A stretch of DNA of 64,000 bases from Straminergon stramineum (Eukaryota > Streptophyta > Bryopsida > Hypnales > Calliergonaceae). Shown piece by piece: positions 1 through 53,040 of the stretch (its first letter is position 1; each line of letters begins with the position of its first letter). A model generated the notes under the pieces. That model made no database searches. It saw only the letters and a program-made list of their open reading frames with translations, and had not been told where the DNA came from. The position numbers and the translations under genes are program-made. The stretch lies in assembly GCA_963920665.1 (NCBI GenBank), contig OY987273.1:15874501-15938500 (forward strand), given 5' to 3'.

Positions 1-343
1 TAAAAGGTAAAACATATTCCATACACCGCACCACTAATTTTGAAAACCCGTGCAATGTTATAAGTTTAGCTAGCCTATATGGTTGTTGTACATTTCGTAT
101 ATAATCAAACTAAAGTTGTAAACCATGAGCAACAATTGGTAAAAAGAGAATGATGGCTAACATATGATTATAATTGTCTTTACAATCCCAAATTGGCTTA
201 GACAAATATCAAAAATGGATATGATTTGATCCTAGATCATAACTAGAGTTAAATCTAATCAAAACTCCAAAAAAACACTAAATATATTCTAAACCCTAAT
301 CCCTAGTGCAACACTATTTTTCATTCCATATTGCACTAGGAAT
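1..343. repeat. host repeat flanking the giant hAT element on the left
   Basis: AT-rich sequence with no coding content. Its last 60 bases (about 283-343, containing a CTAAACCCTAA-type stretch and a TTGCACTAGGAAT end) resemble 18,737-18,795 on the far side of the giant hAT element, and the sequence that continues from this flank begins at 18,607. It is therefore one half of a dispersed host repeat split by the hAT insertion. The last eight bases, CTAGGAAT (336-343), are the left target-site duplication. Confidence 0.7.
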
Positions 344-482
344 CAGGGTTGACGAAAGTGAGTGTCCCAGGCAAAATCACGTCCAAAAATCGGACATTCG
401 GACCCTGCGGACCCTACGTCTCTAGTGGGTAAAAAACACCGTTTGCAAATTTACCCAGGGTAAATGCGGACAGGCGGACAGC
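344..482. repeat. left terminus of element 1 with CGGAC motifs
   Basis: The terminal inverted repeat CAGGGTTGAC is followed by a GTGAGTGTC stretch, a GGGTAAAAA / TTTACCCAGGGTAA pair and five CGGAC motifs between about 390 and 475. The same ingredients occur in the right terminus (18,255-18,598) and in the terminus of element 2 (49,283-49,720). In maize Ac, a hAT element, transposase binds short subterminal motifs; by analogy these CGGAC motifs are candidate binding sites for the BED-finger transposase. That role is inference. Confidence 0.75.
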
Positions 483-955
483 TAGTGGCTAGTTATTTAA
501 TACAAAGCTTCAACTCCTTCAAGTAAACTTTGATTCCTTGAATGCTTTTTACAATAACATATGGAGTTATGGACTATCCTTTGTAGTGTAATCAACCAAA
601 GAAATTGTACACTATAATTGCAATTATGAATTATCAAGGGAAAGGATTAAAGAAAAAATTCAAAATTCTCTTCACCTTGAAAATTACCAAATCTATGATT
701 CTATGACAATCATGAAGTCAAAATTGTTGCATTATATATGTATCTTGCAATGTATCATGCTTCATACAAAGAAAGAAGAACACAGTCAATTTTGGGGGGA
801 CTTCTTCTTGGTTTTGCAATTCAAAAAAAAATAATCATATTTTCAACATCAATAAGCAAACTCCAACTGCAATGGAAGCTTCAAACAATCAATTGCCATT
901 ACATGCTCAATGTATCATAAGCACCTAAACACCTAAGCCTACATCTCTTGAATCT
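483..955. other. AT-rich spacer downstream of the transposase gene
   Basis: No coding content, RNA gene or repeat recognised. It lies between the element end and the 3' end of the minus-strand transposase and would include the transposase 3' untranslated region. Confidence 0.5.
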
Positions 956-3900
956 CTAAGGCTTGTAATCACTATCTCCTTTTACCTCAACCCTACTACT
1001 GTCACATCTAGTTCCCCATCCGTTGTCTTCATCGCTAGATGTCTCTTCCATGTCATTTGATGAAGATTGTACAATTTTCACTCCTTTTTGTACTTGTGTA
1101 GATGTGAATGATCTCATTGATCTACCGGTCTTCTTCTCCATTTTGGCTCTTAATATAGCCATACCAATGCTTTCCTTAAGGCTAGGGATTGTTTTCATTT
1201 TTCTCTTTAACCCCACTTGATAGATATCAAGTGGGGTTTTACCCACATTCGGTCTCTTGCTTGGAGAAGTAGCAAAGGGTTGCATTATCCTTTTTTTACG
1301 AGCATTAATGGAGTCTTCACCCTTTGATATCTCTACTTTTGGCGCTCCTTGAATAATTAATTGCATTGCATTCAAAGACTGCGATGTGTGGCCTAATGAT
1401 TTCAAGGAATGGCATTGTGGATGGCCCCGATGTTGAATAAACATTGAAGCCAATGTCTCAACCTTATCATCATCATCGGTACATGATAAAATGGTTCGAC
1501 TTGGATTGCCTCCGGAGCTCATTTCTTTCATAGGAGACAAATGTCTTTTACCAAGCTGTGATTTCCTTGAACCATCCAATGTCGTGGCATCGCTTTTAAA
1601 TAGTGCACGTGGAGAAGTGCTATGTGGTGGTTTAGGAGAATCTTCCATGAGGTGCATTTTGCCAACACCATTGTTGACAAAAATTGGACTGCCTAACTCC
1701 ATCGAATGTGCTTCAACATTGTCTTGTACTTCGTGTGGTTTGGCATTTCCAATAATTTGTTCAACACATTTCTTGCTTGCCGATACCACTATTGACACAA
1801 CAATTGCATTGGACACATTCATTTCAACGTTCACCTCACATCCTCCTTTGTCTTCATGTTGGTCATTTTTTTCTACCGCCATTATCGGGGATGGAGCATC
1901 GGAAATGGGAATCACTTCATCCTTTTCAAGACTCCCATCATTCACAACCGTTGTCCTATTGGTCGCCCTTATCTCTACATACATATCCTCTATGTTTGGT
2001 AGAAGATTTTTGCTACTCATGAATCCGGTTCCATCCACAAATCTAGCCATCGAAGGTACATCATCATCAAGCCCACAATCATCCTCATTTGATCGAAACT
2101 CATACATGTCTTCATCCGCGACTCCGAAGTCTTCATTGTTTTGATTAGGAGTCTCAAACATTTCTTCGTCAGAATTGTGCATATCATAATTCACAACATC
2201 TCTATCATCAGATACAGATTCATCATCCTTGTCTTCCGAGATAGGCCCTTCCGAATCTTCAGACTCCACGTTGTCATGGTACCACTTCTTTTCATCCTTC
2301 TCCTTCAATGCAGCTATGACTTTGGAATTGGTATATACATACACCAAATCGGCTGCTCTCTATGGCCTCAACTTGTTTCGGGATTCGTTGTGAACAAAAG
2401 AGTAGCTACTCCAATTTCGTTCACATGAAGATGATGACACCGGTTGGGCCAAAATCCTCTTTGCAATTGGAGCAATGAGCTTGCCACATGCACCTTCAAA
2501 ATCCCACCAAGCATATGCCGACAATTTCTGCTCAGCTGGATCCAACATGTTGTGGAACGGAGGATCTCAATGTCGAAATGCTACAAATTCCTTCACTACG
2601 TCAAGATAAGTTCTTGGTTGACATATTTTCCTGATAATGCACTTGCATGCATCTATTGCATCTTGATCGTCAACTAGTTCTTTATCGTGAAGAAAGTAAG
2701 GGTTCAAAAGAGCTCCTGCATAATGTAGATCGGTCTCTACCATTTCTGGTCGCTTACCAAACGCCTTTTCGATAGGAATGGCTAAGTCCAAGGACAAACC
2801 AAAGGGCTCTTCTCATAAAGAGAAGACATGCTTCTCTAAATTCCTCATGATGTGCAACACCTTGCCCATGCATGGTGTCTTCGCATCCAAATAACGTAGA
2901 CCAAACACCACAAGAGCCATCAATTCTCGGAAATTAGTGGCACGGGCCCAAAAATGCTCATCTAAAATTGTCTTCTTCACCTCCCGAGACTCCGTACGAG
3001 ATTTTGCGTTCTTCGTGTCTTGTAACTTGAGGATGTATTCTACCCATTGTGGATCCACCACACTTTGTTGCAATCCAGCCTTGACCTTCAACAAACGAGA
3101 AATCATGAAGAAATTGGAGGCAAATCTTGTTTTCACTGACATCAATAAGCTAGTCTTCGTTTCGTGCTTTTGAAATATAGCTAGCGGCATATGCCGCAAT
3201 CAGAAGAACTTCACAACGGTTTGGGCCTTTTCTACTAGCTCCTTCAGCCATTCTTGCTTCCCCCAATCTTGAAGCAACAAATTCAAGGCGTGCACCACAC
3301 AACCTTGAAAGAAAATGTGCGGATATTTACTCGACACCATATTCCATGCTGCCGGATTTACAGGAGCGTTGTCTGCAGTCACTTGCACAACATTTGTGGG
3401 GCCTACTTGTTCTATAAACTTTTCCAAGATAGAGGCCATAAAAGAAGCATTCTTTTCAATTCCACTTGTATCCATCGATCCCAAAAATTGCTCACCCGCA
3501 GAAGATACAAGCATGGCATTTATCAATGGTTGATTGGTAACCGAGCTCCATCCATCAATAGACAATGTTGCTCCAAACTTCCAAATGCTATCTTTGGTCC
3601 TACTATGAAGCTTTGTCTTGATGTTGGTCTTCGCTTGGTCAAGCAATTTATGGCGTAAATCATGATACGATGGTGGAGCATAGGGCCCACGGTACTCGTC
3701 TATTTTTTTCACTACTTCTTTAAATGCCGGATTTCGAGCTACGGCAAATGGTATGTTTGCCGCATACAAGAAATTGGCCCACACTGCATTCAAATTGCGT
3801 TTTCTTGCGGAATCAAAGCCATCCACTAGACTACTTTGTCTTTGAGGTCTACTACCTAATGCCCTTGGAGTGTCATGATCACTAGATGTTTTTGTAGTTC

Positions 3901-4264
3901 GGTTTACTTCAAACCCTACACCAACAAATTCTTCCACTGCTACGCATGAGTTGTCTTGAGTAGAACGTGCCATATCCCTCTCATTTGAAAAATCCCTCCC
4001 CACCATACGCATGCTACCAACATCTACATTGTCAATGGTCAGTCTCTGCGGAAATGCCCCATTAGATCGAAGAAATAGGATTCGAACATCGGGCGTCAAT
4101 TGCGAACAAAGACTCACTCCTGTATCACGAACACCTGATGGGCCTTCATATCCTAAATGGCTCAACATACGGCTTATCTTCTTGGCAAACACCGAGTTGC
4201 AAGCCTTGCACTTTACCTTACCGATTGATGGGGTACCATACCAACCAAACCAATCCTTGCTCAT
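956..4264 (-). pseudogene. hAT transposase (BED finger, DUF659, hAT dimerisation) with long acidic C-terminal extension
   Basis: One reading frame runs without frameshift from ATG at 4,264 (MSKDWFGW) to a stop at 956-958, interrupted by four in-frame stops: TGA at 3,200-3,202, 2,813-2,815 and 2,567-2,569, and TAG at 2,360-2,362. The N-terminus has a BED-like finger (CKAC, then SHLGY). The centre has the DUF659 signature (SIDGWSSVTNQPLINAML, TADNAP, FFQGCVVHALNLLLQDW), and around 2,540-2,370 is the hAT C-terminal dimerisation region (AYAWWDFEG, SSSSCERNWS, NKLRP). These domains carry out cut-and-paste transposition in hAT elements. After the dimerisation domain the frame continues for roughly 450 residues, acidic at first and then basic, which is unusual for this family. 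A further upstream in-frame codon exists at about 4,333, but the BED region argues for 4,264. Three stops are TGA, as expected from CGA or TGG decay. It is the mobilisation gene of element 1 and is now inactive. Confidence 0.9.
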
Positions 4265-4559
4265 AGTGGCAAGGCACAAATTTTCATTTCGTATATTGGA
4301 ATCAAATTCAAAATGTGAAGACCAAATGAACAATGTCCAAATATAATAAAAAATGAGTGCACAAAGCCTTGAAAATCAAGGCCCTCCCGTCCACTGAACT
4401 ATACATTACCAAGTAAGGGACACAAAAATTGCAGCTCCTAGCCCTTGGAAATCTTAGCGTTTAGTTTTCAAGAGTGCTCTCAAATGACTTCTTTCCTACA
4501 GCTATAGTCTCCCAAACTTGCCTGACCGTTGGAGACCATTTTTGAATCCACAGAACATA
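4265..4559. promoter_or_regulatory. 5' region of the transposase gene
   Basis: AT-rich leader between the transposase start and the CGGAC cluster at 4,560. An AT-rich ATATAATAAAAAA stretch lies at about 4,339-4,352, but no clear TATA box position could be fixed. It probably holds the promoter and 5' untranslated region by analogy with the other three genes of the element. Confidence 0.35.
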
Positions 4560-4830
4560 CTATCTGCCGTCGCCAGTTTCCGCAGCGGACAGGCAGTCAG
4601 GCAGACGGACGGTCCAGCGGTCGGGCGGTCGGTTTAGTCGGGCGGATGGACAGTCCAACAGATGGACAATGCAGACAAGCGGATGGAGTGACGCGAAGAC
4701 AGGCGGACGAGCGAACGAATATTGCGAACGGGTGGACGGGAGGTCGGGCAGATGGGAGGTCAAGCGGACAGTGCATTTAGGGCGGACGGGTGGTTTAGGG
4801 CGGATGGGCAGGGTAGGTCGTGTTCAATTG
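4560..4830. promoter_or_regulatory. CGGAC-rich cluster upstream of the transposase gene
   Basis: A GC-rich island in AT-rich surroundings with five CGGAC motifs on the plus strand plus many one-base variants (CGGATGG, TGGACGG, CGGGCGG). It starts about 300 bp upstream of the transposase ATG. Equivalent clusters precede the other three genes of the element. Promoter or transposase-binding function is inferred from position only. Confidence 0.6.
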
Positions 4831-5234
4831 TTCAAATGTTCAATGCTTCAAGAGATGTGGGATAAAATAGGGATTTATGGATGGAATGAGCCAATGAGGA
4901 GATTTTAGAAAATTATGGTTTTGTCAAAGGGTCTTATAATTTAAAATTTCTAGATGAGCATGAAAAAAACATACTTCACAAAAAGTTGTCCTTCTTAAAT
5001 CACCATAGCATGAACTTAAAAGAAAGCAAAACAAATGATTAATTCAAAGATAGATATATATTGATATTTCATATTTGGATATATAAAGAACTTTAAAACA
5101 AATCAAAATTCATCATGAGTACAATGAATTACTAGTAGTACTCAACCCTTATAACATTCAAGCCACACTCACTGGTATACTTCTAAATTATTAAACATTT
5201 AAACATAATAAAATAAGGAAAGCCTCTCTTATAT
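4831..5234. other. AT-rich spacer between transposase and RING gene
   Basis: No gene, repeat or RNA recognised. It would contain the 3' untranslated region of the minus-strand RING gene. Confidence 0.5.
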
Positions 5235-8200
5235 TTAAGAACCACTACCCTCTCCTAAATCGTGAGATGGCCCCTCCTTAGCCAAAAGTCTTGCACTCAT
5301 TCGTCGAGTATTTGACCTAGGACTATAGACAACACCTCCTCCGGATCTAACCTCCATGTCCACCGTTGTAAACTGCCATTTGGTTTCTGGAGAGTGGTCA
5401 TCGTCATCGTCATCCTCTCTCTTCCGTTTTGAGCTTTGCTTTGGAGACAAATCTACTTCTTCAACCTTCAAGGCCCTCAACGTAGCATCCACTCGATCTA
5501 CAAACACATTGACCTCTTCGTCATCAACTTCGATGGGTAACCCTATTAGTCGAAAATTGGCCAATAGAAACCCCCTCCATTCAGCTATAATGTCACCTAT
5601 CCTCTTGTCAAATGCCCCAACTACCTCCACAATTGAATGCTCAGTAGTTGTTTCCCCATCTATTTCAACAAGAGCACGAGCTTTAGCAGCTTCTTCCAAC
5701 TTTGACAAGAAAAGGGCCCTACCAATCAAAGTGTGATTATAAGCCCCATATTGCTCATTGAACTCTTGAGCATGCTCCACCTCTACCCAAGTTTTTTTGG
5801 GCCCTTTTCGCACTTCTTTGTTGGGAAACCGAAAAAACTTCTTGTGTTGCACACTCCAATGGCCCCCCATGTTGCGACAAAACAATTCACCAGCCTCGCC
5901 ATCTTAATTTCCCGAGGCCCGCAACTCCACCTCTCTGTTAACGGTCATCCACATGAAAGGATCCACTGGCTCTCCAGACTCCTTATACAATCCATGTCGA
6001 CAATCAATTGAATCCCACGTGAGAGGTCGCCCCCAATGCGAGAAATTTTGGAACTGGTATGGCCCTTGATCAAGAGGAAGGATCCATCGGTTGTATTTGT
6101 GGCCGGGGGGCATATCTTCCAAGATCCCAAGCATTTCATAGAACCGAGGGCTCAGAGGAGAACGACACTCGACACAAACTGAACGAATGAGTGATGCTTT
6201 CACGATGCATGTTACGTGAAAAGTGTGGCAACATTGGCCCATGGTTAGGGCTCCTTCAGGGCCAAAAGGACCTTGGCAAAGGCTACAATGACTCTTCAAG
6301 ATTCCTGGGGCTAGATCACAAGCATGCACTACTATCTTCTCTTTCTCCTTGATGTGCGCTGAAAGCGTGTTGTAAGGAAATACCCTTCCTCTATTTCCAA
6401 GGCCCAATCAATGTGTGCAACATTGTCCTTCTTTGCGTGGTTCAACCGCTCAAACATGTCATCCATGTCCCCCCAACATGTAATTTCGGTGGAACCCCTT
6501 GGATGTTCATCAAACACTTTCTTGAACCAAAGCAAAGAGGTCTCCACAGCATTGCATTCTTCATTCAACTTCATTGCTAATTTCATAAGCCCTTTCATTG
6601 CTCAAGATACTACAGAGGGTTTGTCTTGGAGTTTCTGTACCCATGCCAACCATTGAGACTCTAATCCGCTCTTCGGCATGCATTCCTCCATGCCCATGAT
6701 TTTTTGAAATCGGTCCAACTCCACCTCAACAAAGATTTTCTCTTGAATTGCTTCATCTAATTTCAACTGTAGCTCCTCCACCTCACTGCCTTTCATTTCC
6801 GTCGAAGCATCCTGCAATGTACAGGAAACATTAGGAATGATGGTTCGTACTGCTTCTTCACATTTCTTGTCATTCCCAACCTCATCCAAATTCAAGATGA
6901 TGGACGTCTCCACCGCTTTTGCCTTCTCAAAAGGAAGAGAGAGTTGATCGCTTTCTTGACTTTCTTGCACAAATGGAACGATCACAGAGTCCATGGTAGG
7001 CCTACCCCTCTTCAACTCTTGTACTTCGAGCTCCAATTCTTCGATGCACTTTCTTTGAACCACCTTGTTACAACATTCCTGCTCCATGTTTTTCTACGAC
7101 AGCTGCAGCTTCATTTCCAAGTCTTCACACTTCATCTTCAGCCGATGAATGTCTTCCTCTAAGGCCATCAAACTTTTTAAGTTCATCATGCCACCTTCAA
7201 GAATTGGTGCCACTTTCTCGGTGAAATTGCAAAAAGCCAAGGCATCAGTCAACAATTCAAGTGCCATTTTTGAAAATTCCTCTGCCACATCCCTAAACCA
7301 AGGAGTAATTTCAGCTACCATTTGAGCTGAAGTTCTCAATCTGTATGCAGTTTGTGAAATAGTACCCCAGCCACCTTTTCCTCCGGGCTGACTAGAACTG
7401 CGTGCCTCATTTTTGGGATTAGAATGAAGATGTTGTTCTGCTAGTACTTACCAATGACTACAACATTCTAACAACTTTTCCAATTGATTGGCGATGGGTA
7501 TGGAACAAAGAATCTCCAACTGCGCCGAGCTTAAAGTTCCCAAATGTGGATGCCCTCCAGTTCTTGCGCTTAATATTTGTCTTGGGCTCAACCTTCGACT
7601 TGGGCTTATGTTTTGATGAGGACTCAACATTCAAATTGGGCTCAATGTTTGGCTTCGCCTTGGTGTCGTTGGCAGCTGAGAAATTGGAGTTGCATATTCA
7701 ACCAAGCTCTCAAGAGCTTTACTATCTATGTAACCCTGAATTCTAGCATTGGTCCTTGCAAGTTGTTCCTCATTGACCTCTCCATCTGGCGAAAAAGGTG
7801 ACCCACGTTCTTCTACTAGTGTTTCCTTGTTTGCAGCCATGTCTAGACCGCCCAAGGTTGTTTCATTCGTTGTAGTTTCCTTGCTTGGAGCCATGCTTTG
7901 TTCACCCAATGTTATCACATTCGGTGTGGATGTGAAGCACGTTGGAGGAGTTACAAAAACCTCTCCGTTGACACCTCCCGAGTAGACATTGCTCACTTTC
8001 ATGCAAGGTTGTGCCACTTCTGCGGGCCTTAATTGTACTGCATCACCTAAAACCTCGGAGACCTTTGTTGTACACATTGTAGTATTTTTTCATACTTTTG
8101 GGGTCTCCATTTGTTTACTTGGTTTTGCCTGAGAATCGTACAAATCAGGAATGTCTTTTTGATTGGGTTGTAGTAAAAGTGGAGAATCCACCTTGGATGA

Positions 8201-8624
8201 ATAAGTGCTCCAATCTACCTTGCGGTTTAAAATGAGTTCTGCATACACTATGGACGCATCACTGTAATTTATGCATCCCTTACTCCTTGGCTTGTCCCCA
8301 AATAGCGTCCGCCACACCTCCTCCGATCGATGCACAAAATGCTTATTGTTGCAATTACGTGGCTTACAACAAAACCATGTGTATGCACCATGTGGCAATC
8401 CTGAGGCCACAACTTGTCAATGTGGTACATTTTAACATACTTCTTGCATGTTTTGAAGGTCCAATATTCCCCTTCCTCCTCCTCCCAACCGCTCTCCGCT
8501 TTGATGTTCGGGTCATCTAGAATCTCATAGTGAAGCCCATGAGGGGCCCCTTCGCTTTAGTCCCTCTCTTTTTTTCACCTCCTGAAGTCTTCCCGTTGTT
8601 GGTAGGAACACCTTGATTCGCCAT
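5235..8624 (-). pseudogene. cargo gene: N-terminal Cys/His domain, coiled coil and RING-H2 finger
   Basis: Decayed gene read from ATG at 8,624 (MANQGVPTN) to a stop at 5,235. Frame changes occur near 8,520, 8,410 and 6,400; premature stops lie at 8,090 (TGA), 7,631 (TGA), 7,448 (TAA), 7,094 (TAG), 6,602 (TGA) and 5,904. The N-terminal domain (TCKKYVKMYHIDKLWP, NKHFVHRSEEVW, YAELILNRKVDW) matches the start of the neighbouring gene at 12,080 (TCKKYVKMTHLSKLWP, SEHFVCRYEEI, SAEIVLHKEVDW). The middle is predicted coiled coil (about 7,340-6,600). At about 6,287-6,165 is a RING-H2 arrangement: CSLC, then CCHTFHVTC, then CVEC. A nuclear-like basic/acidic segment (KRKREDDDDDD) is near the C-terminus. 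RING-H2 proteins are commonly ubiquitin ligases; that activity is inferred. Preceded by a CGGAC cluster at 8,830-9,290. No exact family was recognised for the N-terminal domain. Confidence 0.75.
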
Positions 8625-8829
8625 GATAGATGATTTGAATTTTTGAGTCCTTTGAAAAATAGTACCACGACGCGTGAATATTGTGAGATGTGTGTAAATA
8701 AGTAACAGCGTAAATCAGCAATAGTAACAAAAGCTCAAGGACCCCCACTCTCCACCCTGTAGGAGCAACTGACACATAAAGCAGCAGTAGCACATCCAAC
8801 CTGGCTCCAAAGGAGAGTAGAAGTGAGAG

Positions 8830-9290
8830 CAAATGAAGAGGCCGTCCCCCCATATACCCGTCCGCCACCAAACCTAAAAAACGTCCGCCCCGAATCGAAC
8901 CTGGACCTACTGTCCGCCGCGGCGGACGCGGGGCGACCGATGGGATTGGCAGATAGGCACTAGTCCGCCTGCTTCGGTGGCGGATGGGCAACTGTCCATC
9001 TGCTTTGGACTACGAGCGGACCTCCGATCCGCTAATCGGAACCGCGAGCCGCTCCTGGACCATCCCGTCCGCTCAGGCCGTCCGCCATCCCCAACCGCCC
9101 CCGCACCTGGCCGTCCGCTTAGGCCGTCCGCATGAATGATGGACTTGGCCATCCGCTCACGCTGTCCGCCATCGTCGACCAACCCCGCACTTGGCCGTCC
9201 GCTCAGGTCGTTCCCCATTGCCGACCAACAACACCTGACATTGTTCACCTCGCTTTGGACCCCACCTGACGGCAGTCCGCCGGCAGTCCT
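8830..9290. promoter_or_regulatory. GTCCG-rich cluster upstream of the RING cargo gene
   Basis: GC-rich block with about eleven GTCCG and two CGGAC motifs, often as CCGTCCGC. It begins about 200 bp upstream of the ATG at 8,624. It looks like the divergent partner of the cluster at 11,090-11,650, with the two left genes and two right genes pointing away from each other. Any reading frames through it are compositional. Confidence 0.6.
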
Positions 9291-11089
9291 AAAGCATTGA
9301 ATTCTGAGAAGGATAGATTCATGTACAAAAAATACTCTTGAATGCTAGAAGTATCCAATGTAGTATTAATGTAAGAAAAGGTAATTCCAAATATTCCTTC
9401 CCACATTTAAACATGCTCTCTAAAGTCCAAACCCTATACTCTAAACCCTAAACCCTGACCCTCCAAAAAAAATCAAAATTATACAACCCTCAATTCTAAA
9501 TATTGAATTTATAACATTGCACAAATTTTCAAAATTATTGATGCGATGTGTGAAATATGTTTTACCTATAAGACTATGATTCCTTTGCAGTTTGGAATGC
9601 AATCATGACAATAAAATGTAGATGTAGACCTTTCTTACTTTGTCATGTACTCATGTGAGTACGTTACTCATGTAGGTTTCAATTTTTCTTAAGATTGAGC
9701 ACCTCAATTATCACTTTATTATGAGCCATTAAATAAATGTGGAATATTCAATTATAACTTGGAGTGTGTCTTCAATTTTCATTGTCGAATGTATTCATAG
9801 TTTAGAACACCAATATGAAATTATGAATATACTAAAAGAAATTATATTATCTCGTTATTCTATTATAACATTTATCGAATGTATGGGATGGTGCTAAAAT
9901 GATTCAAGCATTTTAATGTAATGTGAAATGTTGTGGACAAGATTAAAGTAAGCATTTATACAACAAAATGAATTGAAAATTCATATCATATATACTTTGA
10001 CACTTATACCTATGTATACTTATGTGCATCCTAAATTGTAAACTGATCATTTTTTATCACAACCCCAAAATATTAGAGCTTAGGTAATGTACAATGTGAT
10101 TGACCTTCCAATATGATGAGTTTTCAATTACAAGAAATTAGAAATGGTCATACTTCAATGATTACAAGTGTGTTTCATCTCAAAACTTCTTTGCAAATGA
10201 TTATATAGAAAGGTTCATAATATCATATCTTTTAAATTATAAATTTACAATATTGATTGAATTGCTTATGTTAGTTTTGTAGTTATGTAGGCCTAGGATT
10301 TTCTAAAATTTGGAACCCCTAAAGCCTTCATGCTTTTTTTCCCATCAAATATCACTCAAAACTGCCATTTCGAATGCAAAGAGACAAAAATCTTAAAAAT
10401 TGATTTTTGGGCATATTTAACCATAGGAATTTGTACTAGACTAGTATAAAAAGTAATTGAGTTATCTTGTCATCTTGAAAACTTTGAGTACATACATTGC
10501 GCATGGTATTTGCATTTAAAGTAAGCCCAAGAAATCTTTTCTTCCATCTTGATATACTAGATTGTTGGGCTTCTCATTTTCTTCATTTTAGATTTTTTAC
10601 ACTAATGAATTTCATTTTAGAATATCTCGTGTTGAAAAATTTAACTCTTGAGTGAAGAACCTTGAACCAAAAATTTAGAAATAAATCATTTAATTGAAAT
10701 CACATATCACAAGACTCTCATATAAGAGTGTAGCCGTGTAGGGCCTTTGGGAGTTTAGGGATTGATTATTTTCCTTGAAAGGCATGAAAAAGAATAATAA
10801 ATATTATAAATTGGACCACGAAGGCTTTTGTTACAATCTTAACATCGAATTTCTTTTGCTATTAGTCAAAAAGTATTGTTGACATCACAAACTTGTACAA
10901 AAGCACCAATGTAAAACAAAATTTCTTTACACACTTATTTGAACTCTTGATTTACAAGTCAAATGATTTTTCAAACAAGAGACTTTGGGATGTCACTTTT
11001 GATGGTTGTATCAATTTAAAACCTCATGACATAACATATTAAAAATAATTTCTCTACTTTTCTTAATTCACCATATAATGCAAGCTCTC
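9291..11089. other. central AT-rich spacer of element 1
   Basis: No gene found. A block at about 10,312-10,390 (ACCCCTAAAG, then CACTCAAAACTGCCATTTC) closely matches the left end of the TTAA-flanked element at 16,858 and resembles 13,637-13,725. This makes it part of an AT-rich repeat that recurs upstream of the right-hand GC clusters. Confidence 0.55.
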
Positions 11090-11650
11090 CCACTAAACCG
11101 TCCGTCCACCCATCTCCACATAGTTCAAAACACCTCTTCCGCCCATCCGCCCGTTCACCAATTCAGAAATTGAAAAACTCCTCCTTCCCTCCCTCCCTCC
11201 CTCCCTCCCTCCCTCCCTGCTCTCCCCTACCCTCCCATGCCTCTCTTCGTCCGCCCATCCGCCCAAGTAAGGATTCCGAAATTGAAAAACACCTCCCTCC
11301 ACGGTCCCGCCCACCTCTCCCCTCTAACCTTCCTCTCCGTCCGCCCAAGTAACAATTTTGAAATTGAAAAACACCTCCCTCCCGCAGTCCCACCCACCTC
11401 TGCCCTCTCACCTTCCTCTCCATCTGCCCGCCCGTCCGCAGTGCCCGTCTGCGCGTCCGCAGTCGTCGTCCGCATTTTCCGTCCGCCTGTCCGGAGTCCT
11501 TCTGCATTTCCCGTCCGCGTCCGCGCTGCTCCATTCGCTGCTTGTCGGTGATCGTGCGATCCAGCGGACCGCAATTTTGGACCGCCCAATCTGCCCGTCC
11601 ACCTTCGTGCCGTCCAATGTGGACGGCAGCGTCCACATACCCTAAAGCGC
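11090..11650. promoter_or_regulatory. GTCCG-rich cluster upstream of the Gly/Ser/Tyr-rich cargo gene
   Basis: GC-rich, strongly C-biased block with about ten GTCCG motifs, a repeated ATT(C/T)(C/T)GAAATTGAAAAAC-like segment near 11,160, 11,276 and 11,356, and a (CCCT)n microsatellite at about 11,184-11,218. The gene start follows 430 bp later. The promoter role is inferred from position. Confidence 0.6.
11184..11218 (+). repeat. (CCCT)n microsatellite
   Basis: About eight near-perfect CCCT units inside the GC-rich cluster. Confidence 0.9.
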
Positions 11651-12079
11651 CGACCACATAAATGGCGACGGGGATAGCTCATTTCTTCACAATCGTTTCC
11701 CTTCCGGAGTGGGTGATCCAGTGCCTTCGGGAATCTACGCCCCTTCCGGCTTGGTGCGTGAATGATTGTGTTTGTATTAACTTATTTTATCACATATTGG
11801 TTTTAGTGATTAGGGGGCTGCCCCAACTTATAAGTGTTTAATTTTATGAACTTCATTTGAGTGTTCTTAATTACTTGAACCGTATTTGAGTTCATTGAGT
11901 TGTCAGAAACTCAAGGTGTTCAATTTTATGGTTGATTTGGTTGTCAGTAAAAGTAGGTGGAATTTGTTTTAATCCAAAGTCTTACTTTTCATTTGGTACA
12001 TTTAGCCAAAGCAGGTGGAAATTGGATTTAAACTTTGTAATCCTTTCGATTCTTTATTAATTGAGGTTTGGAGATTATC

Positions 12080-13225
12080 ATGTCGCGTGAAAGTCGTGGA
12101 AGAAGTAAGAAGGGGAAATCCCAAGAGATCAATTGGAGAGATTTGGAAGACGTAACCTGCGTTGCGGAGAAGGGATGGGAAAAGGAGCCCAAGAAAATAT
12201 GGGATTGCACAACATGCAAGAAGTACGTCAAAATGACACACCTCTCCAAACTATGGCCACATGATCGCGCAGAGGTGCAAGTTCGTCATTGGGAGGGACA
12301 AATGTCCACATGTAAGAGCGAACACTTTGTTTGCCGCTACGAGGAGATAATATCTGCATCAGGTTTACCAAGCTCCAAACCAAACGTCATGAACTATTCG
12401 AATATGGCTATGATTTCGGCGGAGATAGTACTCCATAAAGAAGTAGATTGGCGCACGGTTGCAAGGCGCAATGTCAGGAATTTAACTCGCGAGGAAGCCA
12501 TAATTCCTACTAATTGGGTTGGACCAAGCGATTGCATGCCGGAGTGGTCCAATCAAGGCTATGGAGGACTTCCTTCGCTCGTCTTGAAGGATGCTGAAGA
12601 TGATTGGTCAGATGAAGATGATGATGATCCAGCACCCGTGACATTTGGTGAGAGATATGAACATCGAGAAGATCGGGAAGACATTGAGTACCAACAACAA
12701 ATACAAGAGGCCATACGTCGAAGCATGGAAGACCAGGGTCGGCAACATGATGGGTCCTACTACCGTGACTATAATGCACGTGGATCACGAGATGGGACAG
12801 GTGGTTCAGATTATGGTAATGCCCCCCAAGTTGGTTCTCAAAGTATAGGAGGAAGCCATGGACTGACACACTATGGTCAGTATGGTGGTTCTAGCCAAGG
12901 AGGCTCTCAATACTACTCTGGATCAGGAGGCTCTCAATACTACTCTAGATCGGGAGGCTCTCAATACTACTCTAGATCGACTACACATGGTTCATATGGG
13001 CATCAGGGAGGCCCTTATTATGGCGGATCAAGTGAAAGAAGGTCCTAAGAGAGTGCTCCAATTCCTCCTCCAACCTTTGGAGGTCCTTCTTATGGAAATG
13101 AATATGGACAAGGAGGTGCATCAAGTGGATATGGTTACAACTATAGGGGTGGACCATATATTGGGGTACATCCTTCAAGCCCAAATGACAACAAGGATTC
13201 CGATTCCGATTCCAATTCAGAGTAA
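12080..13225 (+). pseudogene. cargo gene: N-terminal Cys/His domain fused to a Gly/Ser/Tyr-rich tail
   Basis: Single open frame of 381 codons plus terminal stop, from ATG at 12,080 (MSRESRGRSKKGK) to TAA at 13,223-13,225, with only one internal stop (TAA at 13,046-13,048, probably from CAA). The first 140 residues hold a Cys/His-rich domain (CTTCKKYVKM, KLWPHDRAEVQVRHW, STCKSEHFVCRYEE) ending in a SAEIVLHKEVDWRTV motif. The same domain is in the genes at 5,235-8,624 and 58,861-62,662. An acidic stretch (DDWSDEDDDD), a charged helix (QQQIQEAIRRSMED) and then a low-complexity Gly/Ser/Tyr/Gln tail follow, including three GGSQYYS(R/G)S repeats at about 12,900-12,975. Such tails are often disordered and condensate-forming; that is inference. 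It is the best-preserved gene of element 1. No named family was recognised. Confidence 0.7.
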
Positions 13226-14280
13226 AGTAGTTAAGTAGAGTATAGTATTCTAGTCATCTTATGTTTGTTTTATTGTATGGTTCACTCATTGTAATGTACA
13301 TAGACGGTAGAGTGTGGCAAATATAGCACAATGTTCTTGATGAGTTGTAATCACATTTTTGTGATTTTGATAGAAATACATTGTATTTTTATATTTTAAT
13401 AAAGCGATATTTATGTCACATAATTTGTAGGATTTAATACCATTGATGTATGACTAAGGGTTAATGGGTATTTGTGAAAATGGAAAATGTATTGGACCTC
13501 TTTCTATAATTTTCTCATTTCAATCATTCAATGTGAATAGGTGAATTGCAAATGCAAAGGATGTCCCAAATATACAATAGAGGTTTGTAGAATAGTGAGA
13601 ACTACCATTTTAGTTTCATTTGCTATTAGAAATTGAACCCTAAACGCTAGAAGTCCGAAGGCTTTTTTCCATCGAAGACCATTTAGTAATTTAGAATTGC
13701 CATTTCCATTACAAAGAACTAGAAAATGTAGGAACAATGTTTTTGGCATGTCAGATTGTACGATTTTGTACTATAGCAATTTATGAATGTGTAGAAGTAA
13801 TTTCAAAAACTTAACCCACATAGATTGTAAGATATTTGGCTATTTGCATTCAAGGTGACTGAAACAAATGATTGTGCTATTTGCTTGACTAGATTTTTGG
13901 CTTCTAATTATTGAAACAATAAATATTTCCACTTGTGAGTACGATTTTATAATTTTGTATGTTGAAGACTTGAAGAATTTAGATGAGAGCATGAGAATGT
14001 AGGAAGAAAAATTCCCCCAAAAGATGTTTAGTTTTTATTCATAAGAGAATTGATAAGTTGAGTATATTCAAGATAGATACTAGAACATTAATAATTTTAA
14101 GATAGAATTATGTAAACATGAGAATCACAACGGTGAGAGTATTTCAAACAAGCAAACGTCACCGGCTATTCCTCTATAATTTTTTTTCATTTCCATGATA
14201 GATGATTTACTTGATTCTTACTTCGGTTTGAAACTGAAATGTTGAATATGATACCTATGTTTGACTTAGAGATGTTCAAG
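13226..14280. repeat. 3' region and AT-rich spacer shared with element 2
   Basis: From about 13,440 to 14,280 this spacer is homologous to the reverse complement of 53,041-53,869, for example around the shared AATCATTCAATGTGAATAGG at about 13,520. It also carries the CCCTAAA / CCATC...GCCATTTCC module seen at 10,312 and 16,858. No coding content. Confidence 0.75.
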
Positions 14281-14760
14281 AGAAATTAAAATCTCTGATC
14301 GTGCAATTCATCTCTTCCATCCGCCTCGTTTCATTCGTCTGCCGTCGCCGAATGGGCTACCGCATCCATGCCATCCACACCGTCCGATCCTGCAGACAGC
14401 CTACCATCCGTTCGATCAGACAAGGTCGCAGCATCCACGACAAGCCGGCCGTTGGATCTGGCGGACGCTGATCGTCTTGCTAATCGGACGGCTGGCTCGG
14501 GGCAGACGGAAGACCGTCCCTAGAATCGGACGGCCATCTCGAGGCGGTCAGAGTGCAGCCAAACGATTGGACGGCAACGACGACGCGGATGATCGGACGG
14601 CCTCGATGAGGCGGATGGCAGGCCGTCCGCACGATCCGACGGTTGCGACGAGGCGGATGGAAGGTCGTCCGCACGATCGGACGGCCACGAGGAGGTGGAC
14701 GGGGACGAGCCATCCGCCCCGTATAAGAGGGGCGGACGGCCCGTCCGCAATCACTTTTGC
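14281..14760 (+). promoter_or_regulatory. CGGAC/GTCCG cluster and TATA-type promoter of the kinase-like gene
   Basis: Six CGGAC and four GTCCG motifs, frequently as ATCGGACGGCC. A TATA box (GTATAAGAGG, about 14,720-14,729) lies within it, some 200 bp before the ATG. The same TATA region, the CGGAC sites and the downstream leader (CACTTTTGCCTTGCCCCTTG) recur upstream of the kinase copy in element 2 at 52,690-52,724. The conservation of box and leader between copies supports a real promoter. Confidence 0.75.
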
Positions 14761-14930
14761 CTTGCCCCTTGCGTTTTGCAAGTGTGGAGTGGAGAGCTTG
14801 GTGGTTCATCCTCCATTGGTTCCTCTCCTCAGGAAGGCAGAAGTCTTATTTGGGGGCCCCACTATTGCCATTTTTTGTAGCGAACTTTGAAGTTTTAGTT
14901 ACAAATTTCGGGTATTAAAAATTTATCACG

Positions 14931-16412
14931 ATGCCAAGATCAAAAAAGGCGGCGAAGGGAAAACAAGTGGTACAAGAGGTGGAAAGTAAGGAAATTCCAT
15001 CTGATGCATGCAAAGCATTCATGACCGAATGCATTGCAAAATTCTATGAATTGGAAACCATTGTGTCTCTTGACACAAAATATGTAAGATATGGAGAAGA
15101 GTGTCCATCCAAATTCAAGGCAGACATGACGCAGAGAATATTGGATGCCTGATACGTTCCGCAATGGCAACATGAGATAGAGAAGAGGGGTTTCAACAAA
15201 TGTTTGGAGAATAAGGTGCATGATGCATTGTGGAACACTGATGTGGTTCTCGGAAAATATGGGAAACAACATCGTGCAAATGATGAAGCCTTTGAGTAAG
15301 TCATTCTCAAAGCTCAATTGTTTATTGGGCGTTGCGCCCCATTTGCGAAGAGGCGTAATAGACGAGGGTCTTCGGGTTGGTGGACTAGCGATGAGGGTCT
15401 TGCTCAATTGGATATGGATAGACGTCATCTTATAGCGCTTCCGGACATCGCACGGGTGATTCCCCAAGATGGCTTAATCATGAAGGGAGGATATGCAACG
15501 ATTCGCAGGGTGGGAATTGAAGGATGTCCAAGGAGAGCTCCATCTTGGGAGTTCGCAGCAAAGATATCCAACCACCACGGTACGCAGCCTCAGCTTGCAA
15601 AGTTGGAACATCAAAATGAATCAATGGCAGTGAGGATTCCACATTCAAGAGTCATACAGTTTGTTGTAGTTCATGCAAGAACAAATGAAGGGTACTCGTA
15701 TTGGTGGAATGGCGGAACACTTCGACAAATGTTGAACCTGGATAACGATTATCCAGACAACATATTTGTTCGGTTACAGTATTCGAATCCAATAGAGTCC
15801 AATGTGACTAAAGCTTTTCATCTCGCTCGGTTTCGGAAGAAGCGCACCGAGCTTGCTTGGGCATTGGTGCATATCATGAATGTGGTACATGTGTCTGGAC
15901 ATCTATACAATGATATTTCTCCAGACAACATCATGTTTCATTTTCTTGATGATGAATCACGTGTTTTCATTGGCATTTGCGATTGGGGCATGACTACTGT
16001 AGCTACCGAACTGATGAAATCCTTGTAAACGTTCACATCTGCAAGTGAAATGAACGAAGCTTTAACAAGGAGGTGGTGAATGGATCCAAGCATTGCATAT
16101 TTGCATAGAAGAGATGCAAATGTGGAAATCATTCCACATTTATCACGTGCATCGGAGGAATATGCGATTGGTAAAATAGCTCAAAGGATCAATAAACAAT
16201 GCATGTCAGAGAACTACAACAAATTGCAACGGGAAACAAATGCAATGGCCATGTTTAGCCACCACCAATCGGGAATTGTGTTTCACCAATACTTGGACCG
16301 GCTTTGTCAAAGAGGTGATGGTTATCGGGGTGGTTTGGCCCACATCATCAATCAGTTCACTGGCCAATTCAATTGGCCTATGCCGGATGAACACTTCCGA
16401 CATTCATATTAG
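14931..16412 (+). pseudogene. cargo protein-kinase-like gene, copy A
   Basis: One frame of 493 codons from ATG at 14,931 (MPRSKKAAKGK) to TAG at 16,410-16,412, with four in-frame stops (TGA 15,150, TAA 15,297, TAA 16,026, TGA 16,077) and no frameshift. Kinase landmarks appear in order: a glycine-loop-like GGYATIRRVGI (about residue 184), an FAAK lysine (about 207), a catalytic-loop NDISPDNIMFHF (Asp about 328, Asn retained), a metal-binding DWG in GICDWGM (about 351), then EEYAIGKIAQRI. His-Arg of the usual HRD is replaced by Tyr-Asn. The 180-residue N-terminus (Lys-rich, then ALWNTDVVLGKYGKQH) is not recognised. Copy B in element 2 has normal codons at three of the four stops (Q, Y and W) and also lacks the fourth (L there). 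The catalytic-loop spacing recalls divergent kinases of the FunK1 type, but assignment is tentative. The substrate is unknown. Confidence 0.8.
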
Positions 16413-16857
16413 TAATATAGTGCAAGAGTGCACTATATAGAGTTTTATAAATATTTGATAAATGTAGAACTTCGGATTTATGCATGTAGATTGCTTAGTA
16501 TATATGCACCCCTAGAGTATGTCAATATATGTGAAATTGGACATACATTTTGAATTTTTCCATGTATTTGAATTGTTTTTGAATGAGTATCAATTTTTGA
16601 CAAATCAAAAATATCTCTTGTTTGAGTGCAAAGTGAAATATTTCTTCTTGAATGTATATGGTTATTTAGTTGGCAAGCTTGTATGACAAATTGCATGATG
16701 TATGATGTGTGGGTGCAAAAGTTTCTGAGCCCGTTCTATTTCATTTGGAATAAGTCTTGGAAGAAGACCATTTCATTTACGATATGGAATTACTTGGACC
16801 TTCTTAGAAGTTGTGTTCCAAAAATTTCATTGATATTTGAATTATGATGATGACCTG
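16413..16857 (+). repeat. 3' untranslated region and downstream spacer of kinase copy A
   Basis: Closely matches the reverse complement of 50,640-51,086 downstream of copy B, so it is part of the transposon, not the host. No coding content. Confidence 0.75.
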
Positions 16858-17787
16858 TTAACCCCTAAAGGACCAAGGCCATTTTTCTGTCAAAAACCAC
16901 TCAAAACTGCCATTTCTGCTGCGTTCACCTATAAAATCCCCAAAAAATAGTTTAAAAAATCTAACCGTTGGATCTTGTACTTTATTTGTCTCAGAACATG
17001 TGGTAAAAATTTCATGAATTTTGACCGCACAGATTGAGAGATATTAGCATTCAAAGTTGGAAAAAGAAGTTTTTTTGAACACTGGCCTGCAATTTCAGAT
17101 GACTTTGACCACCTTTTGTTGAAATTTTTTGCACTATGGACTGTGAATTTAAAATTTTCTGTGTTGAAAAATTGAGTTGATGTTCTAGGAAAAAAATTTC
17201 TAAAGAAAAACTCTTGATTTTCATTCTCTAAAAAATTGTTAAGTAGAAGTAGGTCCAAGATTACATGAAAAACTAAATCATTAATAGCTCTAAGATGGGA
17301 TTGAAAGTCAATAATCCCAATGGTGAGATTGTTTTAGCAAACAAATTTAACTTTGTCAAACAATTGTTTTTGAAAAATTGTGAAAATTGCATTCAGAAAT
17401 GAATCCTATAAGTTATTTTTTCAAGAAGATGCTCATATTGCCCGAAAAACAATATTGTTCATAACTTTCACATTACTAATCCAAATGGAATGAATCAAAG
17501 CTTCACATGTAGACAAAAATATAATCTATAAGAAAAAAGAAATTTTCAATTAGATTTCAATTTTTTGTGGATTTATTTTTCTGCCCGGTGACATGAAAAT
17601 TATGTTTAAGATGGCATAACTTTTGCTCCCGGGCACCAATTGAAATAAAAATGATATTCCCACGAAGCTAATCAGTTTTTCTATCTTATGAGAAAGTTTC
17701 AAAAAGTTTGACTAAAAATTGAAGTCATAGGAACTTGCTAGAAATCCATTTTGTCCCCCGAGGGAACAATGGTCCTTTAGGGGTTAA
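16858..17787. mobile_element. TTAA-flanked inverted-repeat element nested in element 1
   Basis: 930 bp from TTAACCCCTAAAGGACC to GGTCCTTTAGGGGTTAA: perfect inverted ends inside TTAA. The equivalent site in element 2 (about 50,640) runs from the kinase 3' region into ATTGTGG with no insertion, leaving only an AACCCCTG remnant or chance match. No coding content. TTAA targets and CCC(C)TA ends are the hallmark of piggyBac, but no transposase is present to confirm the family. Confidence 0.75.
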
Positions 17788-18254
17788 AGCAATTGTGGTT
17801 TTATTGTTTTAGTGTGTATACTTATAATGAATCAACTATGAAGAGACGTAATTAGTAAATTCATCACAAATGAGAGTGATTCAATTTTAGTGTTTTTTCA
17901 AAAAGGTTTAGGACTTTACAGCACTTAAGCTCTAAATGAATGGGTTACAAAATGTATGTGTGTCCAATATTTTCCTAAACCTGAAATCGTAATTAATTTG
18001 TTATTTTGAGTACCGGTTCTTTGTATATTTATTAAAAAAATCCTTTGAAATTCTATTGTAGCACTCAAAAATGAATTACAAAAATAAATGACTTTTCTCT
18101 TTACAAATTTGTAAAGTGCAATGTTCTTTTCGTTCATTGCTAAGGACTCTTAGAAATGAGCATGAATTGTACCAAATTTCAAAAATAAAATCGCAATAGA
18201 AATTCTCTTAGATTAAAAAAATAAAGATAGAGACTAAATTCGGGGAGTCTTAAG
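17788..18254. other. AT-rich spacer before the right terminus
   Basis: The first 60 bases match the reverse complement of about 50,575-50,640 in element 2. The remainder shows no gene or repeat that I can support. Confidence 0.5.
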
Positions 18255-18598
18255 CGGTCAGACGGGTTGGCGGACAGGCTCCAAAGATCGCGGACGAGGT
18301 CGCGGACGGGCAGACGGGATGGTGGATGGGCCGCAGAAATCGTGGACGGGGTCGCGGACGAGGTCGGGGATGGGCGGATGGGCCGCAGAAACCGCGAATG
18401 GTGTTGGGGACAGGGTCGGGGACGGGCGGACGGGCCGCAGAAACCGCGGACGACGGTGCGGACGGGTTCACAGATGGGGAATTACCCCAGGGTAAAAACC
18501 CGATTTTGCGAATGTCACAGGACATCCGGGGGGGTCGCGAACGCGGATGCCGGACATGCGGACGCTGGCAGCTGCATCAGGACGCCCTGTCAACCCTA
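18255..18598. repeat. right terminus of element 1 with nine CGGAC motifs
   Basis: GC-rich terminal region with nine CGGAC motifs all on the plus strand, a GGGCCGCAGAAACCGCG unit repeated with variation, then a TTACCCCAGGGTAAAAACCC segment and the terminal GTCAACCCTA. Its reverse complement aligns with the terminus of element 2 at 49,283-49,420. Confidence 0.8.
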
Positions 18599-19790
18599 CT
18601 AAGAATGCCTGCCTACAATTTCATAAAGTCAACTATGAAGGTCTCAAATTGCCTCAAACAAATATTGAAAGGAAAACAGATCTTGACTTTCTGAAATTGA
18701 GATTACTACAAACACCAAGGAAAACATAAAATCTTCTCTAAACCCTAAACTTTAGTACAACACTACTCTTTATTTTGCTCTACATTATAAAATGCTTGCC
18801 TAAATTTTTAGAAAGTCAACTATAAAAGTCTCCATAATCCCAGATTGACAAAAATTGAAGGAAGAAGAGATAATTACTTACTAAATTTGAGATTCCATAC
18901 TCACTTCCATTTGATTGCTTAATATTTTGCCTTCATTCCATTCAAATAGTGATTGAGTCTAGAATAACTCAAACTTGGATTCATAGAAATCTCTCACTTT
19001 AAGGCAAGAGTAGCCTAATTGGAATATCTAGAACGAACAAGGTTTTGGACAATTTTCTTACGATGTGATTCAGGTCTTCTAGTGATGAAAGCAAAACTCT
19101 AATTTTAAGACATTAGATCCAAGTACATTGACAATATTGCATCTAATGTTGGGGTGCTTGCATGTTGCATCCCATTTGCCTTCATACCATGCATCCACAT
19201 TATGCAACCAAATAAAAAACTTTAGAGAGGGAGCATTATGATATCAGCCATCAACTAAATGTCCTTATAGACATTGCAAACTAGGACAGAAAGGGTATAG
19301 AAATTGCCAAGCCATGCTCACAATTATGTGCCACAAAGGTCTTTGTACCCTGATATGCATTTTCAAAAAATGTAGCCCATTTGAGCTTATATTACATGTT
19401 AAATAATTTTGAATCTTATTCATTTTGTTGATAAAAATGTAACAAAAAAATTCTTTGAGAAGATTATCCAACTTCAAGGGTAAGGCAACCACTACCAATT
19501 ATGACACCTAACTAATCCAATATGCCAAAGCCATGCACAATAAGTACACACTGATATTGAGAAAGCACATGACTTTAACATTAGAACTCATACCAATTTT
19601 AGTTCATCTACCAATAAAACTTTGAACCCTCATAACAATTGCATCATGTATCCAAATAATCTATTTTTTAGTGCATTTGAACCCTCTTTGCTTTGCTAAG
19701 AACACCTAACCCTTCCAATATGCTCAACACTTAAAGCATGGTTACAATTCAAAGAAATCTCACAACAAAAAAGTTCCAAAAAAAACTCAC
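18599..19790. repeat. host repeat flanking element 1 on the right, with an empty-site paralogue
   Basis: Starts with CTAAGAAT, the right target duplication. About 18,737-18,834 is a tandem-like second copy of the disrupted host repeat that runs uninterrupted through the position where the hAT sits (TTGCTCTACATTATAAAATG corresponds to the left flank plus right flank). Related sequence recurs near 24,480-24,600. The rest holds only decayed sequence, possibly including further exons of the phosphatase relic to its right. Confidence 0.65.
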
Positions 19791-49282: not shown

Positions 49283-49720
49283 CAAGGTTGACAGGATGTT
49301 CGGATATAGCCGTGAGTGTCTAGAAGTCCGATGTCTGCGGACGCAACCCCCCAGGACGTCTTGTGACATTCAGTTTTGGGGTTTTTACCAAGGGGTAATT
49401 CTTTTACCCCGTCCTCATTGTCGTCCACCTGCCTGCCTGTCCGCGACATTGTCCACCATTTACGTAGCCCGTTCGTAGATCTTGAAGACCGTCCAATAGT
49501 CAATTAGGCTTTCCGCCTCCTTGGCCACGAATCCAACTAGCCATCCCCTTGAACGGTCGTCCGCCCAACTGCCGTGTCCATCCATAATGTTGTCCGCAAA
49601 TCTGGTCGGCCAGCCGCCAAACCATCCACGGGTCTTGTCGTCCATCTACGCCTCCGTGAGACCATCCATCGACTCGTTCGCAAGTCTACTTGGTTGTCCA
49701 TGAGGCCGTGCATTTCATGA
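49283..49720. repeat. terminus of element 2 with GTCCG motifs
   Basis: Terminal CAAGGTTGACAGG, then GTGAGTGTC, CAACCCCCCAGGACG, TTGTGACATTC and GGGGTTTTTACCAAGGGGTAA, each matching the reversed right end of element 1. GTCCG occurs four times and CGGAC once, with many one-base variants. Confidence 0.8.
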
Positions 49721-49740
49721 ATAATCGTGGAATTTTGTTT

Positions 49741-50380
49741 TTAACCCCTAAATGCCCAAGGCCTATTTGGACCTTCTTGAAATCTGTTCAAAATTGAACA
49801 AAAAGTCAACATTTTCATAAGTTAAACCAATTTATTTTGAATCGTAACTTACAAATTCAAACAAGACATATTAAACATCCTTTAGGAAAAAAAAATTACA
49901 ATATCCCTTACAAATTGAAAGATTATAATGTTTGATCATGAAGGTGTTAAACGTATGAAAATTTTTCAATTCTTTTTTTGCATGTCAACTCTAAAAAGTT
50001 GGTCACTAAAAACATATGAGGTTATAGGGCTTAGCATGCACAACCTATCAATTTATGGTTTTTCAAAATCTATTCTATGATTTTCTTAAATGAATTTCTA
50101 TTGTGATTTTTCCTCCAACATCTGGTGTATTTGAGGCTCATTTCCAAAAGCCCTCAACACTACAGGAGCTACAGATTGCAATGGGCATCCTTGCACAAAA
50201 TCTTGAATAGAAAAATCATAATCCTTCTTTTTCAAGATTGGCTTTTTGAACCTAAAAGTAGACTTCAAAAAGAGTTCTCCAAAAATTTAAACTACTAATA
50301 ATAGCAATTTGGTTGGGTTCTACTTAACTTCAAAGTTTTTGAAACACTAGAATTTGGTGCCTTGGGCATTTAGGGGTTAA
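49741..50380. mobile_element. TTAA-flanked inverted-repeat element nested in element 2
   Basis: 640 bp from TTAACCCCTAAATGCCCAAG to CTTGGGCATTTAGGGGTTAA, with perfect inverted ends. It sits about 200 bp nearer the transposon end than the 930-bp element of copy 1, so the two insertions are independent or relocated. No coding content. Confidence 0.75.
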
Positions 50381-51086
50381 TAAATACAATCATGTACTTA
50401 AGGGAAGTATTTTAAAAAAAGAAAGTGAAGGACAATTGAATCTCAAAATTACATGATGAAAGAAAGAAAGAAGAATGCTTGATTTTGAGGATTTCCAGTA
50501 AATAAGGCACAACTCCCCTTTTCAAATAAAATTTCTTTGTAAACTACTTAAAACCCCTTCATCGTCAAGAATTTAGGTCTCTTGACAGTTGATACATTAT
50601 AAGTATAAACACTAAAAAATAAAAACCACAATTGTTGCAGGGGTTTGTCACTACAATTCAAATATCAATGAAATCGTTTGGACACAACTTCGAAGAGGGT
50701 CCAAGTAATTTCATATTGTAAATGAAACCCTCTTTTTTCAAGGCTCTTTCCAAATAAAATTGGACAACGCTAAAATTTTACACCCATACATCATACAACT
50801 AACAATTCGTCACACACGCTTGCCAACTCAATATCCATCAACATTCAAGAAGAAATTTTGCACTTTGCATCAAACAAAAGATCTACTTTAGATGCCAAAA
50901 ATTGATATTCATTCATTATTTAGCAATTCAAATACATTGAACTATTCAAAATGTATGTCCAATTTCACATATATTGGCATACTCTAGAGGTGCCTACACA
51001 CTAAGCAATTTACACGCATAAATCTGAAGCTCTACATTTAACAAATATTTCTAAAGCTCTATATAGTGCTCTCTTGCACTCTATTA
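50381..51086 (-). repeat. 3' region of kinase copy B
   Basis: From about 50,575 to 51,086 it matches element 1 at 16,413-16,857 joined directly to 17,788-17,850, that is, without the 930-bp insertion. No gene. Confidence 0.7.
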
Positions 51087-53030: not shown

Positions 53031-53040
53031 GACAACATGG

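Follow-up and report, generated by a model that had tools for sequence, protein, structure and literature searches.

Plant hATs are usually regarded as one-gene elements: those of the Ac/Tam3 type have short terminal repeats, make 8-bp duplications and usually hold a single gene within a few kilobases. The locus considered here is a stretch of 64,000 nucleotides from the moss Straminergon stramineum (the window; C11:15874501-15938500 of the 326-Mb, 59-contig assembly that was searched). An initial annotation described it as containing an 18-kb hAT transposon with three cargo genes besides its transposase. Is this a single mobile element, and if so, do the additional genes belong to it, and what might they do?

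Ends, duplications and copies of the element

The element spans positions 344-18598 (18,255 bp), with hAT termini and an 8-bp duplication (Table 1). The extent first proposed for it, 336..18606, proved exact, and the inverted termini and one-mismatch duplication reported with it were seen again. The clear inverted part of the termini is short (9 of 10 bp), and the two duplication copies, CTAGGAAT and CTAAGAAT, match at 7 of 8 bp. Inward of the inverted 10 bp, the ends are alike in their GCGGAC-rich character and form no long inverted repeat. The further proposal, that joining the flanks restores a host repeat, was examined by alignment. Once joined, the flanks match about 18693-18900 over the full junction with a score of 156, while the highest score among 200 shuffles was 70; the alignment is gapped and is weaker evidence than the duplications. 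As controls, the left flank alone scores 75, while the right flank alone scores 120 over a stretch that overlaps the target, making this second value uninformative. A 62-nt inverted repeat (85% complementary) has one arm outside the element (5-66) and the other inside it (9506-9567).

Table 1. Features of the window, with the duplications that flank other copies. Array remarks give GCGGAC counts in copy C8a.
Feature	Position	Strand	Remark
Left target-site duplication copy	336..343	.	CTAGGAAT
Left end: terminus CAGGGTTGAC (344-353) and subterminal CGGAC motifs	344..485	+	matches at 40 scored places
hAT transposase, about 1,100 codons, dead here	956..4264	-	DUF659 in window ORF 3200-4375
GCGGAC-rich array before transposase gene	4560..4805	.	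8 vs 0.45 expected
RING-H2 gene, broken here; N-terminal C-x7-H...C-x3-H module and coiled-coil-like middle	5235..8624	-
GCGGAC-rich array before RING gene	8820..9300	.	13 vs 0.73 expected
GCGGAC-rich array before GSY gene	11095..11645	.	14 vs 1.03 expected
GSY gene: C-x7-H...C-x3-H module and Gly/Ser/Tyr-rich tail	12080..13225	+	frame ends early here
GCGGAC-rich array before kinase gene	14300..14760	.	8 vs 0.78 expected
Protein-kinase-like gene, 493 codons	14931..16412	+	4 stops here
Right end, with terminus GTCAACCCTA (18589-18598) and a GCGGAC-rich array	18240..18598	+	3 vs 0.30 expected
Right target-site duplication copy	18599..18606	.	CTAAGAAT
A', remnant of an older, related element, comprising right end CAAGGTTGAC and a kinase (51090-52513)	49283..53823	-
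C6a duplication			AATATACT twice
C8a duplication			CTTGTGAA twice
C2a duplication			CGTTGACC / CGTTGACT
C1c duplication			ACCAGAGG / ACCATAGG
C11a duplication			GGTAAATG / GGTGAATG
C7a duplication			ACTTTATAC twice, readable as 8 or 9 bp
C10a duplication			GTTTGGAG twice, spanning nested insertion

Taken by themselves, short inverted termini and a mismatched duplication could belong to a chance composite, in which a hAT transposase and unrelated neighbours happen to lie between fortuitous ends. Copies elsewhere in the genome bear directly on this possibility. The first 601 bp of the left end matched 329 candidate places genome-wide, and the best 40 of these, the window included, were scored; all are 93-100% identical. 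We read 11 copies, namely the window and those at the 10 left ends that ranked highest among the other 39 (a non-random sample), fetching 20 kb downstream for each non-window copy and slightly more for five. The transposase, RING, GSY and kinase regions are colinear in 10 of these 11 copies at about 90-94% identity, which falls to 80-91% in the last kilobase of the element; in copy C1b, the assembly has a gap about 5 kb into the element. Both ends and an 8-bp duplication with at most one mismatch are present in eight of the 11 (the window, C6a, C8a, C2a, C1c, C11a, C7a and C10a), with the ends spaced 17.9-35.8 kb apart. These two-ended copies have the short terminal inverted repeats CAGGGTTGAC / GTCAACCCT[AG]. 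Recurring ends, duplications and a colinear gene set refute a chance composite, to which we assign next to no probability. The same copies, ends and duplications, together with the protein domains, bear out the original description, a hAT of 18 kb that has three genes in addition to its transposase, and show a multi-copy family. We regard its identity as a giant four-gene hAT element as practically certain.

The remaining copies are less complete. The right ends of C1a and C1d were not found within the 24 kb read. C1a and C1b have an identical left flank, TGTGTGGT, and are therefore probably a single insertion duplicated along with its surroundings; 81% of the length of the C1a kinase is present in the stretch read. 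In C10a, a nested insertion splits the kinase, and a full-length kinase region reappears beyond it. In the stretch read from C10:1923657 onward, this second region, a family A kinase, begins anew past a 200-N gap though the kinase had already been half read, which could mean that the region was duplicated or that the assembly was mis-joined there. Four further left ends (on C3, C9, C5 and C4) were probed by short stretches. The kinase is present at the C3 end, and only element positions 9,131-10,156 were seen at the C9 end. On C5, the element can be followed to position 7,545 within a stretch with a 200-N gap, and a farther stretch is free of element DNA; on C4, it reaches 4,321 and gives way to unrelated DNA, the farther stretch including 173 N. 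In all, the kinase was seen in 11 of 15 copies, the other four being C1b, C9, C5 and C4. The outcomes that the initial annotation named as refuting it were not encountered in the sequence covered: no transposase-only copy between two termini was demonstrated among the 15, of which these same four are incompletely covered. Contig C11, with 5.4% of the assembled sequence, holds 13 of the 40 left ends that were scored (binomial p 9e-8), an enrichment possibly biased by a query taken from C11 and by the scoring of the best 40 only.

Four genes and their decay

The transposase of copy C8a matches DUF659 (1.6e-37) and Dimer_Tnp_hAT (1.9e-8) in a profile search, both above the Pfam cut-off. It contains the motifs SIDGWSS, VTADNAP and SSSSCEQNW, which may carry the D-D-E catalytic residues of hAT transposases. 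Its main frame of 784 amino acids is open in this copy only, of the 11 read, and has four stops in the window. No intron is apparent in the genes of the element: each can be read as one long frame in one or more copies, excepting single stops in the transposase.

The RING gene has accumulated five stops and five frameshifts in the window. Its frame is open in one of 10 copies, C1d (1,063 amino acids), where it stops about 67 residues short of the would-be end of the window frame and perhaps lacks its tail. The eight C3H2C3 ligands of the RING are invariant in all 11 aligned sequences. The zf-RING_11 profile scores 27.4 in the window ORF, just above its cut-off of 27, and 24.8 in C1d, below it; profile matches in the PDB are to RING E3 ligases. 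At E<=0.001, 16 homologues with 32-52% identity were found among the 7,998 best candidates scored. The GSY gene is open in four of 10 copies (367 amino acids in C11a) and has 34 homologues at the same threshold (36-69% identity). In the window, its frame is cut short at 13048 by inserted sequence that contains a stop, and the column alignment itself counts no stop.

A C-x7-H...C-x3-H (CHCH) zinc module lies at the N-terminus of both proteins, in all 16 GSY sequences and in 10 of 11 RING sequences; the RING homologue P0087 does not have the pattern. Neither a sequence search nor a limited fold comparison matched the module to any PDB entry. For both the GSY homologue P0055 and the RING homologue P0086, the reported source is a contig 17,649 bases long. 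This is probably one and the same contig, in which case the two genes would also be linked in another organism. Elsewhere in the window, positions 62447-62677, within 60432-62677 on the minus strand, weakly resemble RING-type homologues in their N-terminal module (28-31%), and a charged or coiled-coil-like frame adjoins them. No RING pattern occurs in window positions 56000-64000. The 60432-62677 stretch is perhaps another diverged family.

The kinase frame of 493 amino acids is open in one of 10 copies, C11a, in which the glycine of the DWG motif is lost. Lys211, Glu230, Asp328, Asn333 and Asp351, corresponding to the catalytic Lys, the Glu, the HxD...N and the D of DFG, are invariant in 19 of 19 sequences, an alignment chosen from 46 matches plus the query and including the query. 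The Pkinase profile scores 24 for this family (family A), below its cut-off of 31.7, and 33.2, above the cut-off, for a second family described below. The 46 homologues at E<=0.001 have 32-92% identity, and the only named eukaryotes among them are represented by two proteins of the moss Ceratodon purpureus. One of these, P0037 (KC19_VG055000), is an annotated kinase gene representing 126 sequences and, judging by its tag, perhaps lies on the V sex chromosome. Its relation to a transposon gene calls for caution in annotation, as P0037 may be transposon coding sequence annotated as a gene. Another relative, P0008, is labelled Bacilli bacterium and is probably plant DNA in a bacterial bin. Scans with the kinase and GSY alignments found no relative in GTDB genome contigs, nor did a scan of IMG/VR with the kinase alignment or a plasmid search with one transposase piece. 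A prokaryotic or viral origin is thus unsupported. Outside the element, the frame at window positions 46721-47128 (minus strand) encodes a phosphatase domain of the NLI-interacting-factor-like type (PF03031, E 1.7e-05).

None of the copies read is intact for all four genes. The gene set of the initial annotation stands, since all four genes are present, with the amendment that the window copy is dead. Most noncoding changes among the copies are singletons (465 of 617 over 5,680 sites), so the recent copies look like a burst. Within it, the ratio of nonsynonymous to synonymous singletons (observed/expected) is 2.50/2.60 for the kinase, 2.38/2.44 for RING, 2.22/2.35 for the transposase and 1.95/2.75 for GSY. 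Coding changes within the burst are near neutral, which counts against the explanation favoured below; the GSY value is lower than expected. For shared changes, the ratio is below expectation in the kinase (1.83), RING (1.79) and transposase (1.71), and above it in GSY (3.17). Decay is concentrated at CpG, with 87 of 124 CpG positions changed compared to 9.5% of other positions, which suggests that the element copies are methylated.

Related families and the standing of the extra genes

Many plant transposons contain captured gene pieces. The near-neutral changes within the burst would suit kinase and RING genes that were captured from the host, as in Pack-type elements, and are carried as passengers with no role in the life of the transposon. 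Two related lineages allow this idea to be weighed over longer times. The first, A', is an older subfamily with a remnant in the window (Table 1). Its broken kinase is about 75% identical to family A at the amino acid level and has gained seven stops; no GSY, RING or transposase parts of A' were found within the window. Comparison of the A' kinase with the family A majority gives pN 0.075, pS 0.323 and dN/dS 0.19 (one pair, one gene), and flanking noncoding pieces longer than 140 bp are 68-74% identical. Because of this low dN/dS, we conclude from this one pair that the kinase was under purifying selection between the two subfamilies while the lineage moved, and that copies decay afterwards.

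The second, family B, is the element that interrupts copy C10a (left terminus CAGGGTTGTC). From its left end, it carries a transposase (minus strand), a RING gene (minus) and a kinase (plus), the order and orientation of family A. The proteins are deeply diverged: the transposase is 31% identical to that of family A (E 4e-56), the RING protein 25-29% (best E 1e-20) and the kinase, with its HNDLTPSN, DWG and APE motifs, 26-27% (best E 3e-32). In the RING protein, the module takes the variant form C-x7-H-x23-C-x3-E, with glutamate replacing the last histidine of family A. The frames are broken in this copy. No match to GSY was found in it. Its right end is hidden by a 200-N gap. C1b holds another partial transposase, 31-45% identical to pieces of family B.

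These comparisons leave little room for passengers. The genes are full-length and intronless, with open frames in some copies; their order is kept in family B; the kinase was constrained between subfamilies; and each gene is preceded by its own array (Table 1). We therefore consider it improbable that the kinase and RING genes are mere captives. We are confident that they are constitutive accessory genes, part of the normal gene set of the element. The initial annotation was right to count three extra genes, but "cargo" is a poor word for them, because RING and kinase keep their order beside the transposase in a family as diverged as B.

GCGGAC arrays and a candidate regulatory role

GCGGAC-rich arrays precede all four genes, and the motif also occurs at the ends of C8a, on either strand (four in the left; three in the right vs 0.30 expected). 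The counts were matched by none of 1,000 first-order simulations for five arrays and by three of 1,000 for the right end, figures that are descriptive since the array limits were set after inspection. The rest of the element has two GCGGAC in the 14,450 bp compared. In family B, arrays lie at the left end, before the transposase, and between RING and kinase; these share the CGGAC core and have other flanks.

Extra genes and motif arrays have been described together in another group of plant DNA transposons. VANDAL elements of Arabidopsis, which are MULEs, encode VANC anti-silencing proteins and have noncoding tandem arrays of family-specific motifs (PMC10398659). The likeness extends to the additional genes, the noncoding tandem arrays (here of GCGGAC) and the family specificity of the motifs. 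In contrast, the moss element has hAT domains and no MULE transposase, its array binding is predicted, and the portion of the VANDAL/VANC account we drew on mentions no RING or kinase gene. A second precedent is fungal: TET+ hAT7 and IS3EU elements carry accessory regulatory enzymes, with TET/JBP genes, and conserve gene order in some families, IS3EU has an alpha-kinase gene, and hAT7 makes 7-bp duplications (PMC12730594). The moss element resembles hAT7 as a hAT with accessory, putatively regulatory genes, and differs from these fungal elements in its RING-H2 and Pkinase-type genes, its 8-bp duplications and its plant host. No TET/JBP dioxygenase domain was detected in the 10 window ORFs or five copy proteins scanned.

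Other comparisons are more distant. The element is like Ac/Tam3 in its hAT transposase, short terminal repeats and 8-bp duplications, but unlike them in its 18 kb, its three further genes and its internal arrays. Fungal Starships are large multi-gene elements with a tyrosine-recombinase captain and variable cargo. The resemblance to them drawn earlier is fair as to size and the presence of several genes, but VANDAL/VANC, TET+ hAT7 and IS3EU are nearer precedents. The moss element is a hAT whose few genes are in part common to two families. We reject a Starship identity, as the ORFs scanned have no tyrosine-recombinase domain and the element has instead a hAT transposase and 8-bp duplications.

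How might such a gene set work? In the mechanism we infer, the transposase would cut and paste the element. The CHCH module would bind the CpG-containing GCGGAC arrays and so bring the RING and GSY proteins to the ends and promoters. There, RING may ubiquitinate, and the kinase phosphorylate, targets that could be the transposase or host factors for silencing or transcription. The expected outcome would be promoters and ends that are kept active, a hAT counterpart of VANC-type anti-silencing. That the accessory genes have such an anti-silencing or promoter-licensing role is possible, though somewhat short of an even chance. For the explanation as a whole (the element, its gene set, selection and the anti-silencing mechanism), our rough probability is 0.55.

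Its main rival assigns the same proteins to transposition itself. The CHCH proteins would pair the distant ends by way of the arrays, much as TnpA serves CACTA elements, and RING and the kinase would tune the level or timing of the transposase. Arrays do lie at both ends, besides those before genes, and subterminal repeats are important for the hAT nuclease Kat1 (PMC4763223). Nevertheless, arrays before all four genes point to expression control too, and we hold a transpositional role to be rather unlikely.

The anti-silencing explanation extends to a broader and more tentative proposal, in which we have somewhat less trust than in the anti-silencing role by itself. Mosses may host an old clade of giant, self-regulating hATs in which transposase, zinc-module RING E3 ligase and protein kinase form a fixed kit, to which some families add a low-complexity zinc-module protein. 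This kit would bind the GCGGAC-type arrays that the element itself has at its ends and promoters, and lift host silencing through ubiquitin and phosphate signalling, with arrays and module co-evolving in each family. Among the matches listed in a search of the CC-licensed PMC literature, there was no plant giant hAT, moss hAT or Ceratodon transposon of this kind. Multi-gene hATs with regulatory genes have already been described in fungi.

Taken together, these observations suggest that this plant transposon brings along regulatory genes of its own. If RING and the kinase are lasting members of the lineage, the transposon may engage the ubiquitin and phosphorylation pathways of its host. The arrays and the C-x7-H...C-x3-H module provide a concrete target for testing how a transposon escapes silencing.
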